64,000 bases of DNA from Candidatus Magnetominusculus dajiuhuensis. Lineage in GTDB: Bacteria > Nitrospirota > Thermodesulfovibrionia > Thermodesulfovibrionales > Magnetobacteriaceae. This document shows, in pieces, positions 2,213-46,196 of the stretch. Within the stretch, counting starts at the first letter, position 1; every line of letters starts with the position of its first letter. The DNA is taken from contig JADFXP010000005.1 of assembly GCA_015233465.1 (NCBI GenBank), positions 62,001-126,000 of the forward strand. The letters are read 5' to 3'. The notes beneath the pieces are model-generated. The model saw only the letters and a program-made list of their open reading frames with translations, made no database searches and was not told where the DNA came from. The translations under genes were made by a program, and so were the position numbers.

Positions 2213-2787
2213 CTTGCTCCTAAATGTTTCAACATTTAAAGTTTAATGTTTCTTAATATTGATAAGATTAGGCTTAAAAAATGGTCAAACAGCAAATGAA
2301 ATGTAAAAATGAAAAAAGGATAACCTAATTTTGAAATTTGAATTTATCTGTATAAAAAGCTGATTATGTATAGTTGATTTTTGAAATGAAAATTTAACTT
2401 GGACAGCAGTGGTCACAGACTTGCTCCCGCGTCAGAGTCTGAGACCCTGTCCATTGTGACGCCTGCTCCCGCACGAATAACCAAAGAACTTGTAGGGGTA
2501 ACCCTTGTGGTTACCCTTTGGGCAGGCACAAGGCCTGCCCCTACGAAACCATCAAGATTAAGTATCCCTTTTTTACCTTGGACAGTTGTGGTTTTCTTAA
2601 AGCCCCAGAAGAATATAAAGATAAAATAGATAATCCTCATGGTTTAAAATCTACTCTTATGAAGACATTTGTGACGAAATTAAAGACGGCACAAGTCCAT
2701 AATTCATCACCCTTACGTTATTAAATTGCCTTTACAGCAATATTTTGATATAATAATCAGAGAGATTCAGCACTATAGGGAGGAAGT
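2213..2787 (+). other. 575-nt gap without an intact gene: repeats and degenerate coding fragments
   Basis: The stretch holds a structured segment at about 2396-2465 with nested pairs GGACAG/CTGTCC and GTCACA/TGTGAC and a TCAGAGTCTGA palindrome. A double family B repeat follows at 2492-2544. Then comes a possible coding remnant at 2640-2700 whose one frame reads FKIYSYEDICDEIKDGTSP before a stop. The apparent ORFs of 68-76 aa here translate the palindromes and are not credible genes. Confidence 0.6.
2492..2544 (+). repeat. Family B palindromic repeat, double (head to head)
   Basis: GTAGGGGTAACC-CTTGT-GGTTACCC is joined by TTT to an inverted second unit, GGGCAGGC-ACAAG-GCCTGCCCCTAC. Each unit is a perfect 7-8 bp stem with a 5-nt loop, and the outer GTAGGGG/CCCCTAC ends also pair. 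The same family occurs at 4198, 17439, 23191, 25331 and 29736. Confidence 0.9.
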
Positions 2788-3321: not shown

Positions 3322-4428
3322 ATGAATAAAGTTCTAATCGGAATGAGCGGCGGAGTGGATTCCTCTGTCACCGTTCATCTTCTAAAAAAAGATGGATATG
3401 AGGTTGAGGGTTTGAGCCTTATTATCTGGGATACTCGAAATAGGACAAATCTTACATCTTGCTGTTCACTTGACGCTCTTAATGCTGCAAAAAAAACCGC
3501 TGATACCCTTGGGATTAAACACCGCTCCCTTGATGTCAGGACTAAATTTATTGATAAGGTCATTGACCCATTTGTCAATTCATATATAAACGGTAAAACC
3601 CCTAACCCTTGTATTTTATGCAATAAATTTGTCAAATTCCCTGCTCTAATTGAAGAGGCTGCTAACCACGGGATAGACTATATCTCTACTGGTCATTATG
3701 CAAATATTACTCATGATAGTTCCCCAATCCTTAAAAAAGGCATTGACCCAATTAAAGACCAGTCTTATTTTCTATATGCCCAGACACTTGAGGATTTAAG
3801 CAAAACCATCTTCCCTCTTGGACAATATACAAAGGGGCAAGTCCGTCAGATTGCAGCGAACATCAAACTCTCTAACGCAAATAAACCAGAAAGTCAAGAG
3901 ATCTGCTTTATTGATAATAACGATTACAGAGGATTTCTTAAAGATTACATCCCAAACATTGAACTGCAAGGTCAGATCTTAGACATGCAAGGCAAAACTA
4001 TAGGCAGGCATAACGGAATATTCGGCTATACAATCGGGCAAAGAAGAGGGCTTGGAATCTCTTCAGATAGACCGCAATATGTAAAGAAGATTGATGTATC
4101 AACAAACACTATTATCATGGGTCACAAGGAAGACTTATATATTTCAGAGATTAATCTTACGCAGTTACATTTACTCTATAATTTAAACGAGAAGTCAGGG
4201 CAGGTACAAGACCTGCCCCTACGTAGGGGTAACCCTTGTGGTTACCCTAGATTAAAGATTCAAGCAAAACTTCGTTCTACCATGAAAGAAAGTCCTGCAC
4301 AATTATTTATTGATAATAACGACTCAGCAAGATTGATATTTGATCAGCCTCAATGGGGCGCCTCTTGCGGACAGAGTACTGTTTTTTATTTAGGAGATGT
4401 AGTTTTAGGCGGTGGAATTATTGCTTGA
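3322..4428 (+). CDS. mnmA: tRNA-specific 2-thiouridylase MnmA
   Basis: A 368-aa enzyme that thiolates U34 of tRNA Glu/Gln/Lys. The ATP pyrophosphatase loop GMSGGVDSS is at residues 7-15. The catalytic cysteine pair is expected at Cys100 (NPCILCNKFVKF) and Cys195 (SQEICFID). The GHYA motif and the C-terminal beta-barrel end (Y-L-G-D-V-V-L-G-G-G-I-I) are present. Oddity: residues 293-309 are encoded exactly by a family B palindromic double repeat in the linker of the C-terminal domain, kept in frame. The gene is monocistronic; a promoter for dapL lies over its stop codon. Confidence 0.97.
   Translation: MNKVLIGMSGGVDSSVTVHLLKKDGYEVEGLSLIIWDTRNRTNLTSCCSLDALNAAKKTADTLGIKHRSLDVRTKFIDKVIDPFVNSYINGKTPNPCILCNKFVKFPALIEEAANHGIDYISTGHYANITHDSSPILKKGIDPIKDQSYFLYAQTLEDLSKTIFPLGQYTKGQVRQIAANIKLSNANKPESQEICFIDNNDYRGFLKDYIPNIELQGQILDMQGKTIGRHNGIFGYTIGQRRGLGISSDRPQYVKKIDVSTNTIIMGHKEDLYISEINLTQLHLLYNLNEKSGQVQDLPLRRGNPCGYPRLKIQAKLRSTMKESPAQLFIDNNDSARLIFDQPQWGASCGQSTVFYLGDVVLGGGIIA
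4198..4247 (+). repeat. Family B palindromic repeat inside mnmA
   Basis: The unit GGGCAGGTACAAGACCTGCC and its neighbour GTAGGGGTAACCCTTGTGG are arranged tail to tail and sit in frame in mnmA. They translate as GQVQDLPLRRGNPCGYP (residues 293-309). The 50 nt match the intergenic copies at 2492-2544 and 25331-25383. Confidence 0.9.
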
Positions 4429-7697: not shown

Positions 7698-7771
7698 GGG
7701 CTCTGCCCTTTATATCTACGGGCTCCCTTTAGGGATGGCTCCCGCAAAGGGACTTGTCCCTTTTGAACCCA
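7697..7771 (+). repeat. Family A palindromic repeat
   Basis: AGGGCTCTGCCCT, a spacer, then AAAGGGACTTGTCCCTTTTG and AACCCA. Two hairpins lie in the 116-nt gap between convergent genes, starting at the phosphatase stop codon; the copy has an extra GGCTCCCTTTAGGGATGGCT segment. It may end transcription from either side. Confidence 0.85.
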
Positions 7772-7813
7772 CTATTTTTAAAAACCTTCTATGTTTTATT
7801 GGTTGACTAAATG

Positions 7814-16209: not shown

Positions 16210-17304
16210 ATGACTAAAAATAATTCTATAAAATTAATCTCAATATTCTCTATTTTGATAATATTACTTACATCAGCAGGCTGTACTAATTATAAAGGCA
16301 TGCTTGAAAAAAAAGGAATTCAATATTCAGAGATTAGTTTTCTTGACCAAGTTAAACAAGGAAATATTGAAAATGTAACAATATTTATAAAAGCTGGCGT
16401 TGATGTTAATTATAGAAATATAAATAATGATACAGCATTAATGATAGCATCATTTAATGGCCGCACTGAGATTGTAAAGATACTTATTAAAAAAGATGCA
16501 GATTTAAACGCTATAAATAACGAAGGCCGCACCGCTCTAATGTATGCCTCACTAAATGGACAAACTGATATAGTAAAGATACTTCTTGATAAAGGCGCTT
16601 ATGTCAATTCCTTAGATAATGGAGGACGAACGTCTTTGATGTCAGCTTCTTCAAAAGGTTATTCAGAAATAGTGAAAATGCTTCTTGATAAAAGGGCTTA
16701 TTATAACACTCAAGATAAGGCAGGAAACACATCCTTACTATATGCAGTATTAAATGGTTATACAGATATAATATTTTTACTTTGTAATAAAGGCGTTGAT
16801 CTAAACGCCAAATACCCAAATGGAGATACAGCATTAATCGTTGCTTCATCAAAGGGTTATACTGAGGCAGCAAAGATTCTTATTGAAAAAGGCGAGGACA
16901 TTAATACAAAAGATAATGAGGGTCGCACAGCTTTAATGGCTGCATCATCAAAGGGTTATACTGAGATTGTAAAATTACTGCTTGATAAAGACGCAAATAT
17001 AACAGAAAGATACTCTGATGGAGATACGATTTTAATTACTGCATCATCAAAAGGTTATACAGAGATTGTAAAATTGCTGATAGACAAAGGCGCAGACGTT
17101 AATGCTAAGGGATTAAATAATAATACCGCATTAATATATGCAGCATTAAATGGTTATATAGATATAGTGAAACTACTATTAGAAAAAGGCGCAGATATAA
17201 ATGCCAAAAACAATGTTGGAAATAATACAGCATTAACATATGCTGCATTAAATGGTCAAAAAGAAATTGTAAATCTTTTAAAGGCCGCTGAAACGAAAAA
17301 GTAA
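16210..17304 (+). CDS. Ankyrin-repeat lipoprotein
   Basis: A 364-aa protein starting with a signal peptide ending in SAGC (Cys25), a likely but non-ideal lipobox (Ser rather than Leu at -3). From about residue 40 to the end it is built of 9-10 ankyrin repeats with the pattern G-x-T-A-L-M-x-A-S-x-x-G-x-T-E-I-V-K-x-L-L-D-K-G-A-D-x-N. It is probably anchored in the outer or inner membrane facing the periplasm, and serves protein binding. Several repeats are nearly identical at DNA level (ATCATCAAAGGGTTATACTG), suggesting recent internal duplication. It closes the accessory island. Confidence 0.9.
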   Translation: MTKNNSIKLISIFSILIILLTSAGCTNYKGMLEKKGIQYSEISFLDQVKQGNIENVTIFIKAGVDVNYRNINNDTALMIASFNGRTEIVKILIKKDADLNAINNEGRTALMYASLNGQTDIVKILLDKGAYVNSLDNGGRTSLMSASSKGYSEIVKMLLDKRAYYNTQDKAGNTSLLYAVLNGYTDIIFLLCNKGVDLNAKYPNGDTALIVASSKGYTEAAKILIEKGEDINTKDNEGRTALMAASSKGYTEIVKLLLDKDANITERYSDGDTILITASSKGYTEIVKLLIDKGADVNAKGLNNNTALIYAALNGYIDIVKLLLEKGADINAKNNVGNNTALTYAALNGQKEIVNLLKAAETKK

Positions 17305-17316
17305 CTTTAAAACATG

Positions 17317-17374
17317 AGGGCGCTGCCCTTGTTATCTACGGTCACCCGCAAAGGGACTCGTCCATTAGAACCCA
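17317..17374 (+). repeat. Family A palindromic repeat (diverged)
   Basis: GAGGGCGCTGCCCTTGTTAT, CTACGGTCACCCGC, AAAGGGACTCGTCC, TTAGAACCCA. The second hairpin has lost its 3' arm, so this copy is decaying. It lies between the ankyrin gene and its terminator. Confidence 0.75.
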
Positions 17375-17441
17375 TAATTTTTATAAACATTTGCTCTATG
17401 TTTTATTAGTAAGTATCTATATAAATATTCTCAATACTGTA

Positions 17442-17470
17442 GGGGCTGCCCTTGTGGCTGCCCTTTTTTT
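17442..17470 (+). terminator. Intrinsic terminator built from a family B repeat
   Basis: GGGCTGCC-CTTGT-GGCTGCCC forms an 8-bp stem with one T-T mismatch and is followed at once by seven T. It is the family B unit GTAGGGG... starting at 17439. It should stop transcription coming from the ankyrin gene. Confidence 0.65.
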
Positions 17471-21944: not shown

Positions 21945-21994
21945 GAGGGCTCTTCCCTCAAACTCCCGCAAAGGGACTTGTCCCTTTGAACCCA
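21945..21994 (+). repeat. Family A palindromic repeat
   Basis: GAGGGCTCTTCCCTC, AAACTCCCGC, AAAGGGACTTGTCCCTTTGA, ACCCA. It fills the gap between rpmE and the DUF1385 gene; its last base touches the rpmE stop codon. Confidence 0.9.
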
Positions 21995-22204
21995 TTAAGC
22001 AGGCTTTGTTCCAGCGTACTTTTTGTTGAATTTAGAGATTCTGCCCTCTGTGTCCATTATCTTCTGTTTGCCTGTATAAAATGGGTGACAGACTGAACAT
22101 ATCTCTACATGCAATACCTTTCTGGTTGATCTTGTAGTAAATTTCTCACCGCATGCGCAAGCTACTACGGTTTCCTTATATTCTGGATGTATTCCTTCTT
22201 TCAA
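21995..22204 (-). CDS. rpmE: 50S ribosomal protein L31 (zinc-binding type)
   Basis: A 69-aa L31 with the zinc ligands CxC (ACACGEKF) and CxxC ([15 protein letters not shown]). A longer ATG-start frame exists (22234), but the sequence AGGAGG directly precedes a TTG at 22204. Starting there gives MKEGIHPEY, the standard L31 N-terminus, so TTG is the better start. It is the first gene of the rpmE-DUF1385-prfA block. Confidence 0.95.
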
Positions 22205-23190: not shown

Positions 23191-23215
23191 GTAGGGGTAA
23201 CCCTTGTGGTTACCC
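23191..23215 (+). repeat. Family B palindromic repeat, single unit
   Basis: GTAGGGGTAACCCTTGTGG followed by TTACCC: an 8-bp perfect stem with a CTTGT-type loop, between proC and yggT. Confidence 0.9.
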
Positions 23216-25330: not shown

Positions 25331-25383
25331 GTAGGGGCAGGTCTTGTACCTGCCCTCAGGGTAACCACAAGGGTTACCCCTAC
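25331..25383 (+). repeat. Family B palindromic repeat, double
   Basis: GTAGGGGCAGGTCTTGTACC then TGCCC, TCA, and an inverted GGGTAACCACAAGGGTTACC plus CCTAC. It lies between hisS and yicC, mirroring the copy at 2492-2544 with the two stems swapped. Confidence 0.9.
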
Positions 25384-27089: not shown

Positions 27090-27791
27090 ATGGAAGATAC
27101 CTTTAAAATAAATAATTCTATAAAAAACCTTCAAGCCATCTTTAATGATAATGCAGATGAGACTAAAGCAGGTTTTGTAAAATCATATCTAAAAAGCCCT
27201 TATAAATTTTATGGCGTCAACATTCCATTAATTGATAAAACAGCAAGGGAATTCACTAAGGCTAATATTGGATTACAAGGTCATCAAGTGATTGAATTAT
27301 CAAAACAACTATGGGACTCCCAGTATCACGAAGAAAAAACCCTTGCCCTAAGATTATTACGTTACTTTAATATTAAAGATATAGAATTATACGAAAGACT
27401 GCTCATTGAATCAAAGGGCTGGGATCATGTTGATGATATTTCAATTTATCTAGTAGGGGCTCTTATTATAGAGAGTAATGAATATTTAGATTATCTAAGA
27501 AAATGGAGTATATCAGAGAATTTTTGGATACGCAGGGCTTCATTAATCTCTCAAATTCTGCCTTTTAGAAAAGGCTTAGGCGATAGAGCACTTTTTTATT
27601 CATTTGCAGATAAGATGATAGAAGAGAAAGAATTTTTTATCAGAAAGGCTATTGGCTGGACTTTAAGGGAATTATCTAAAATCTATCCAGAAGAGGTCTA
27701 TAATTATCTTATTAAGGTAAAAGATAAGGCATCCGGGCTGACTTTAAGGGAGGGTTCAAAGAGACTGCCTGAAAAGTACAAGTTTTTATAA
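27090..27791 (+). CDS. DNA alkylation repair protein, AlkD-like HEAT fold
   Basis: A 233-aa protein of the AlkC/AlkD HEAT-like family, which excises or handles alkylated purines. Seen are the helix pattern, KSYLKSPYKFYGVNIPLID, ELSKQLWDSQYHEEKTLALRLL and W-D-x-V-D-D-I-S (WDHVDDIS), and FWIRRASLI plus IGWTLRELSK near the end, the positions of the DNA-facing residues in the family. It has no close upstream gene on this strand. Activity is predicted from family membership only. Confidence 0.88.
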   Translation: MEDTFKINNSIKNLQAIFNDNADETKAGFVKSYLKSPYKFYGVNIPLIDKTAREFTKANIGLQGHQVIELSKQLWDSQYHEEKTLALRLLRYFNIKDIELYERLLIESKGWDHVDDISIYLVGALIIESNEYLDYLRKWSISENFWIRRASLISQILPFRKGLGDRALFYSFADKMIEEKEFFIRKAIGWTLRELSKIYPEEVYNYLIKVKDKASGLTLREGSKRLPEKYKFL

Positions 27792-27792
27792 T

Positions 27793-27846
27793 GGGTTCAA
27801 AGGGACGAGTCCCTTTGCGGGATTTTTAAGGGCAGAGCCCTTAAAG
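27793..27846 (-). repeat. Family A palindromic repeat
   Basis: In reverse orientation: TGGGTTCAAAGGGACGAGTC, CCTTTGCGGG, ATTTTT, AAGGGCAGAGCCCTTAAAG. It follows the alkylation-repair stop codon by two bases. Confidence 0.9.
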
Positions 27847-27870
27847 AGGTTATTACATAAAGGGGAAGGA

Positions 27871-29735: not shown

Positions 29736-29760
29736 GTAGGGGCACGGTGTTCCGTGCCCT
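29736..29760 (+). terminator. Family B repeat acting as a bidirectional terminator
   Basis: GTAGGGGCACGGTGTTCCGT followed by GCCCT: a perfect 8-bp GC-rich stem (GGGCACGG/CCGTGCCC) with a TGTT loop, between the convergent genes nfu and cutA. It is AT-rich on both sides but has no long T run. Confidence 0.55.
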
Positions 29761-33671: not shown

Positions 33672-33720
33672 GGGCTCTGCCCTTAAAAATCCCGCAAAGG
33701 GACTCGTCCCTTTGAACCCA
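33670..33720 (+). repeat. Family A palindromic repeat (canonical copy)
   Basis: AAGGGCTCTGCCCTTAAAAA, TCCCGC, AAAGGGACTCGTCCCTTTGA, ACCCA. The first hairpin overlaps the stop codon of the GT9 gene. It is the clearest copy and is used here as the family reference. Confidence 0.95.
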
Positions 33721-33736
33721 TTTTAAAAGACCTGCC

Positions 33737-34708: not shown

Positions 34709-34766
34709 GAGGGCTCTGCCCTTTTCATCTACGGGCTCCCGCAAGGGGACTCGTTCCCTTGACCCA
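34709..34766 (+). repeat. Family A palindromic repeat
   Basis: GAGGGCTCTGCCCTTTTCAT, CTACGGGCTCCCGC, AAGGGGACTCGTTCCCTTGA, CCCA. It lies between leuD and the FkbM gene. Confidence 0.9.
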
Positions 34767-34773
34767 TTATATA

Positions 34774-46064: not shown

Positions 46065-46123
46065 GAGGGCTCTGCCCTTTTCATCTACTGGCTCCCGCAA
46101 AGGGACTCGTCCCTTTGAACCCA
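46065..46123 (+). repeat. Family A palindromic repeat
   Basis: GAGGGCTCTGCCCTTTTCAT, CTACTGGCTCCCGC, AAAGGGACTCGTCCCTTTGA, ACCCA. Nearly identical to the copy at 34709. Confidence 0.9.
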
Positions 46124-46196
46124 TTATAAAAACAGCATCTTGATTTATATTTTATTTTGATGATAGAATAAATATTATTTGTTTCATTTGGAAGGA

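Follow-up and report, generated by a model that had tools for sequence, protein, structure and literature searches.

How a palindromic repeat came to be read as protein inside a conserved tRNA-modifying enzyme is the question raised by the mnmA gene (tRNA 2-thiouridine(34) synthase, 368 amino acids), located at 3322..4428 on the plus strand of the 64,000-nucleotide stretch of DNA that was analysed here (the window). The ORF belongs to the MnmA family, with an NF001138 profile score of 392 bits against a cut-off of 284. The SGGVDS motif, C100 and C195 were invariant across the aligned MnmA sequences, and all of the motifs that are kept down to 36-46% identity were present. We take C100 and C195 to be the cysteines with catalytic roles in MnmA. 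The host genome harboured one full-length MnmA, a second match being weak, partial and at a different locus. The first-pass annotation had described a repeat at 4198-4247 that encodes residues 293-309 of an otherwise intact MnmA; the coordinates and the residues were right, and the gene is indeed full length, without a stop and the sole full-length copy in the genome.

The repeat consists of two back-to-back 25-nt REP units, each an exact match to the REP pattern. Unit 1 (CAGGT type, 4198..4222, minus strand) is read as GQVQDLPL(R) and unit 2 (TAACC type, 4223..4247, plus strand) as (R)RGNPCGYP. Both have an 8-bp stem, a 5-nt loop and GTAG at the 5' end, and the dimer that they form encodes the 17 residues GQVQDLPLRRGNPCGYP. 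As 17 codons amount to 51 nt and a clean insertion of 50 nt would break the frame, at least one further base must have arrived with the insert or have been altered. Both units were identical, letter for letter, to common variants in the host genome. This identity suggests, at the level of sequence, that the insert is a recent arrival.

The units were assigned to the GTAG-type REPs on several grounds. GTAG was unpaired in the folds of both mnmA units, and the 8-bp stem and 5-nt loop are within the range given for GTAG REPs (stem 5-13 bp, loop 2-20 nt; PMC3733652, Table 1). Eight REP units were detected in the window when up to two mismatches to the pattern were allowed, all eight having none, compared with a mean of 0.01 in dinucleotide shuffles, which rules out chance matches as the origin of the units. 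In the host genome (3,130,381 bases in 75 contigs, 92.5% complete) there were 78 exact matches and 96 with at most one mismatch; the reversed control gave 0. The 96 sites formed 74 clusters, among which were 22 inverted dimers, another feature of GTAG REPs. The copies are also dispersed and mostly outside genes, as expected for such REPs, with 62 clusters lying clear of ORFs of 100 or more amino acids, 5 across the end of such an ORF and 7 inside. Given that ORFs of this size fill 0.88 of the window, this distribution indicates that genes are strongly avoided and that insertions into them are mostly purged. Apart from mnmA, the window contained an intergenic dimer at 2492..2544 and a dimer outside long ORFs at 25331..25383 (both with GTAG ends outside and a 3-nt spacer), single units matching the pattern at 17439..17463 and 23191..23215 (plus strand), and a palindrome at 29736..29759 (plus strand, 8-bp stem, 4-nt loop) that is headed by GTAG, has another loop and does not belong to the main pattern.

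Other repeats were observed in the same sequences. A second dispersed family, of the TCCCGCAAAGGGACTCGTCCCTTTGAACCC type and about 40-60 nt long, had copies at 7731-7772, 17335-17376, 21955-21996, 27789-27847, 33681-33722, 34728-34769 and 46084-46125 of the window. Nine 99-nt coding repeats stood in tandem at 16426-17276, and are presumably ankyrin-like, judging by their period. Elsewhere in the host genome, a hybrid REP unit (C10:12438-12462, L109) had a TAACC-type left arm and a CAGG-type right arm and adjoined an inverted TAACC-like arm; it seems to have arisen from a dimer by deletion or recombination.

MnmA was compared with its counterparts in 59 relatives from the family or order of the host, of which 18 share its family and none its genus. 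A match was present in 57 of them and absent from G013 and G027. The alignment across relatives, which had been suggested as a check on the repeat, found the 17 residues in none of the 57, so that an old shared insert can be ruled out. Twelve MnmA loci from named genomes also lacked the insert (one of these, L071, being G017 again); no same-genus relative turned up among the named genomes, where very near records may be missing. The loop between the LNWL-like and VKIRS-like strands comprised 30 residues in the MnmA studied here, compared with a median of 12 in 58 sequences (this one included) and with 11-20 residues in 17 same-family relatives; it was longer only in G048 (32), G049 (34) and G021 (48). 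The exact REP pattern occurred in only 4 of the 59 relatives, with one or two copies each, and in none of the 18 same-family relatives. This near-absence indicates that the REP family expanded in the lineage of the host. It is very likely that the repeat moved into mnmA.

An AlphaFold2 model of MnmA, built on a 13-sequence alignment, had a mean pLDDT of 84.3. Only one segment, residues 290-307, fell below a pLDDT of 50; the strands on either side of it, 273-284 and 311-317, belong to the C-terminal barrel. The fold model thus agrees with the first-pass annotation in placing the insert in the barrel, and predicts it to be a disordered surface loop between two strands. In the order-wide MnmA alignment this loop (loop 289) had the greatest maximum length, 37 residues between conserved columns, followed by loop 133 (31) and loop 40 (27); the spread in length was larger for loop 133 than for loop 289 (s.d. 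8.29 vs 6.78).

Three further families of the order carried different inserts, palindromic or repeat-like, in this loop, at loci L217 (G031), L032 (G042), L209 (G021), L042 (G049) and L049 (G040). G031 and G042, which belong to one genus, share a C-rich palindrome in this loop. A strict pattern of this palindrome was found at 5 places in G031 (one of which is mnmA), 11 in G049, 8 in G050 and 4 in G042, the last count leaving out the degenerate mnmA copy of that genome, and every place being listed on both strands. The same pattern occurred once in G021, in its mnmA copy only, and in none of four other genomes searched, that of the host included. The loop insert of G049 is an imperfect palindrome with one other near copy. 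The inserts of G021 and G049 are therefore palindromes for which these searches gave, in their own genomes, no more than a single copy and one other near copy, respectively. The loop of G040 carried a ATAACGCAT-type repeat, of which G049 has a near copy. The loop near residue 133 also contained an in-frame palindrome or short tandem repeats in several relatives: a palindrome in G029 (L219), a tandem repeat in G044 (L221), and one or the other in G028 (L218) and G031 (L217). The barrel loop of MnmA is a tolerant landing site, occupied by different repeats in several relatives of the order. Most simply, repeats would land at many places and, inside genes, persist only at loops of this sort.

The seven clusters inside ORFs of the host genome were in mnmA, polA, an M29-type peptidase gene, the gene for a kinase/AAA protein, a decayed Y1 gene and two ORFs near TTG starts. 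The last two (C66:9002 and C74:100318) were rejected as intragenic REPs; they are at most 28 residues from a TTG start, and the true start probably lies downstream of them. An in-frame REP in polA (L117:604-3264, contig C22; 886 residues) encodes residues 307-315. These follow the 5'-3' exonuclease domain, which ends at 273, and precede the polymerase domain, which starts at 510. An alignment with 29 relatives showed this region to be a variable linker. Part of the stem pairing of the polA unit has been lost, while the mnmA units are common variants, which suggests that the polA insert is the older and the mnmA insert the more recent of the two. In the M29-type peptidase gene (L117:3631-4776, contig C22; PF02073) a REP dimer in frame encodes residues 33-52 of 381, and replaces approximately 16 native residues, for a net gain of about 4 amino acids (alignment with 20 relatives). 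The two genes are neighbours, some 370 nt apart. In the kinase/AAA protein (L021, minus strand; C44:93023-93075; an open frame of 1775 amino acids) 18 residues encoded by a REP dimer replace a shorter native loop, with a net gain of about 11 amino acids over the 7 closest homologues. The replacement of native residues in the peptidase and kinase genes indicates that the insertions did not simply add residues there. The REPs of polA, the peptidase and the kinase are, like that of mnmA, each in a linker or loop. At least three genes besides mnmA have thus absorbed REPs in frame. In the decayed Y1 transposase gene (L100:1400-2164, minus strand, contig C1) the REP is in a linker and the second half of the gene is in another frame. 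Further GTAG palindromes were present just downstream, and the locus looks like the remnant of a REPtron.

The arrangement of the mnmA dimer differs from that of most dimers in the genome. A REPIN consists of two inverted REPs that are separated by a short spacer and have outward GTAG ends. REPINs were reportedly described by Bertels and Rainey in 2011 as REP doublets that are moved as one unit. The 53-59-nt GTAG-outside dimers of the host genome look like REPINs. GTAG ends were outside in 20 of the 22 dimers, 11 of which had spacers of 3-9 nt and 9 of 28-31 nt. The mnmA dimer is not a REPIN, as its GTAG ends are inside and its spacer is 0; the only other GTAG-inside dimer is that at C66:9002, which has a spacer of 24 nt. 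The first-pass annotation had regarded the mnmA repeat as a copy of an intergenic repeat (its family B). This holds for the identity of the repeat and fails for a colinear copy, the order of the units being opposite to that in the intergenic dimers. The mnmA insert is instead an exact circular permutation of the dimers at C15:40348 and at 25331-25383 of the window, with the 3-nt spacer omitted: when the outward GTAG ends are joined and the spacer is opened, the mnmA insert is obtained letter for letter.

This permutation might reflect an intermediate like that of IS200/IS605 transposition, a single-stranded circle in which the ends abut, reinserted after cleavage in the spacer, although we consider such a route unlikely. 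It is also possible, with the odds somewhat against it, that the dimer was not inserted as a unit, and that a second REP was added beside the first or a tandem array of dimers was trimmed. All 11 short-spacer dimers are GTAG-outside and the only other GTAG-inside pair is widely spaced, as this route would have it, and some published families are rich in GTAG-inside dimers, the spacers being of 1-2 bp in one family of Opitutus terrae (PMC3733652). Against it, at no place among the clusters of the host genome did three or more REP-pattern units occur within 120 nt, and CAGG-type units are mostly dimeric (11 of 16), 8 of these 11 having a TAACC-type partner as in mnmA. The choice between these possibilities bears on the route only. 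By whichever route the dimer formed, we favour the reading that a GTAG-type REP dimer recently entered a length-tolerant loop of the MnmA barrel (probability roughly 0.87). The dimer would have entered mnmA in a stop-free reading frame and with a net length divisible by three, its landing place would have been a disordered loop of freely varying length, and it would have been kept because it was harmless. The survival of the insert would then be explained by this combination of net length, open frames and a disordered, length-variable loop.

Two other explanations would remove or change this reading. A repeat mis-joined into mnmA during assembly might be suspected in an assembly of 75 contigs with 25-nt repeats in tens of copies, but is hardly credible here. 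None of the other clusters in the set of 74 is both abutted and GTAG-inside, which shows that the 50-mer was not copied from an intergenic dimer; the two flanks are those of one MnmA, and the frame runs on through the insert to the conserved GGGII end; and three other genes present the same in-frame pattern. The insert might instead disrupt or alter MnmA, or the REP might act at the RNA level in the message. The predicted RNA does form two 8-bp hairpins (-29 kcal/mol), and Di Nocera and colleagues speculated that REPs in repair genes alter the activity of the protein (PMC3733652). Such an effect is nevertheless highly unlikely, as this mnmA is the sole full-length copy, is free of stops and frameshifts and retains the motifs shared with distant MnmA sequences, and as the insert is in the MnmA loop with the greatest length range across the order. 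Under the favoured reading of a tolerated loop insertion, MnmA with the insert is presumably made and active, and the insert is probably neutral.

The repeat in mnmA was probably moved by a Y1/HUH transposase of the RAYT type. TnpAREP/RAYT enzymes are described as cleaving close to the hairpin of REP substrates, in a GTAG-dependent manner, at CT or, for one of them, at either CT or CA (PMC8266576); in mnmA a T directly follows unit 2, giving CCC|T. Five PF01797 matches were found in the host genome. The best RAYT candidate, L138 (287 amino acids), scored 74 bits with NF047646, for which the cut-off is 80, and no GTAGGGG repeat was found in its 2.6-kb locus. The remaining Y1 genes were an IS200 transposase and fragments. 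An intact REP-flanked RAYT was not found in the host genome and, at 92.5% completeness, may be absent from the assembly; it is plausible that the mover enzyme is encoded in this genome.

Several elements of this picture are concordant with the literature. REPs tagged with GTAG or CGTC were described from more than 80 species by Di Nocera, De Gregorio and Rocco (2013, PMC3733652). Some of their copies lie inside genes, and the intragenic targets that they name include DNA polymerase I and tRNA pseudouridine synthases. The family studied here has in common with those GTAG REPs an unpaired GTAG end, a short stem-loop, dimers in both orientations and a mostly intergenic location, as well as the reading of some copies inside genes, DNA polymerase I and tRNA-modifying enzymes included. 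It differs in that MnmA is not named in the abstract, the parts on GTAG families, dimers and genome distribution or the first part of the discussion of that paper, whose supplementary list of intragenic copies may include it, and in that the string 'Nitrospir' does not occur in the paper's text, where 24 GTAG families are published. A RepRanger survey includes three Nitrospirota genomes, with counts of candidate REPs (PMC12306157). The Rickettsia palindromic elements (RPE; Ogata et al. 2000, 2002) are described as mobile palindromes lying in frame in unrelated genes and apparently tolerated there (PMC10969869). They resemble the mnmA insert in being palindromic repeats in frame within a gene; however, according to the same source they measure about 150 bp and are found in Rickettsia, whereas the repeats of the host genome are REP units of 25-58 nt in another phylum and are read in several frames. 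The mnmA insert works like an RPE, yet, being a 50-nt dimer of 25-nt units and not an element of about 150 bp with a conserved peptide in Rickettsia, it is not one.

Intragenic GTAG REPs, RPEs and the turning of palindromes into protein sequence are thus already known. No literature linking MnmA with palindromic inserts was found, judged by titles and the openings of abstracts. As far as the literature was searched, the novel features are MnmA as a target, four REP-tagged genes in a Nitrospirota-like host, the reuse of one MnmA loop by unrelated repeats and the permuted dimer. The permuted mnmA dimer is a concrete and testable trace of the mechanism of REP mobility; if the circle were the true route, mnmA would keep the footprint of how a REP dimer travels, which is a poorly understood step. 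Across one order, two MnmA loops have absorbed unrelated palindromes and tandem repeats in frame, and the MnmA loop offers a natural assay in which the tolerance of a site for new sequence can be read across many genomes. These observations extend the known cases of selfish palindromes that have turned into protein to a tRNA-modifying enzyme that is conserved, and to a Nitrospirota-like genome in which at least four genes are REP-tagged.
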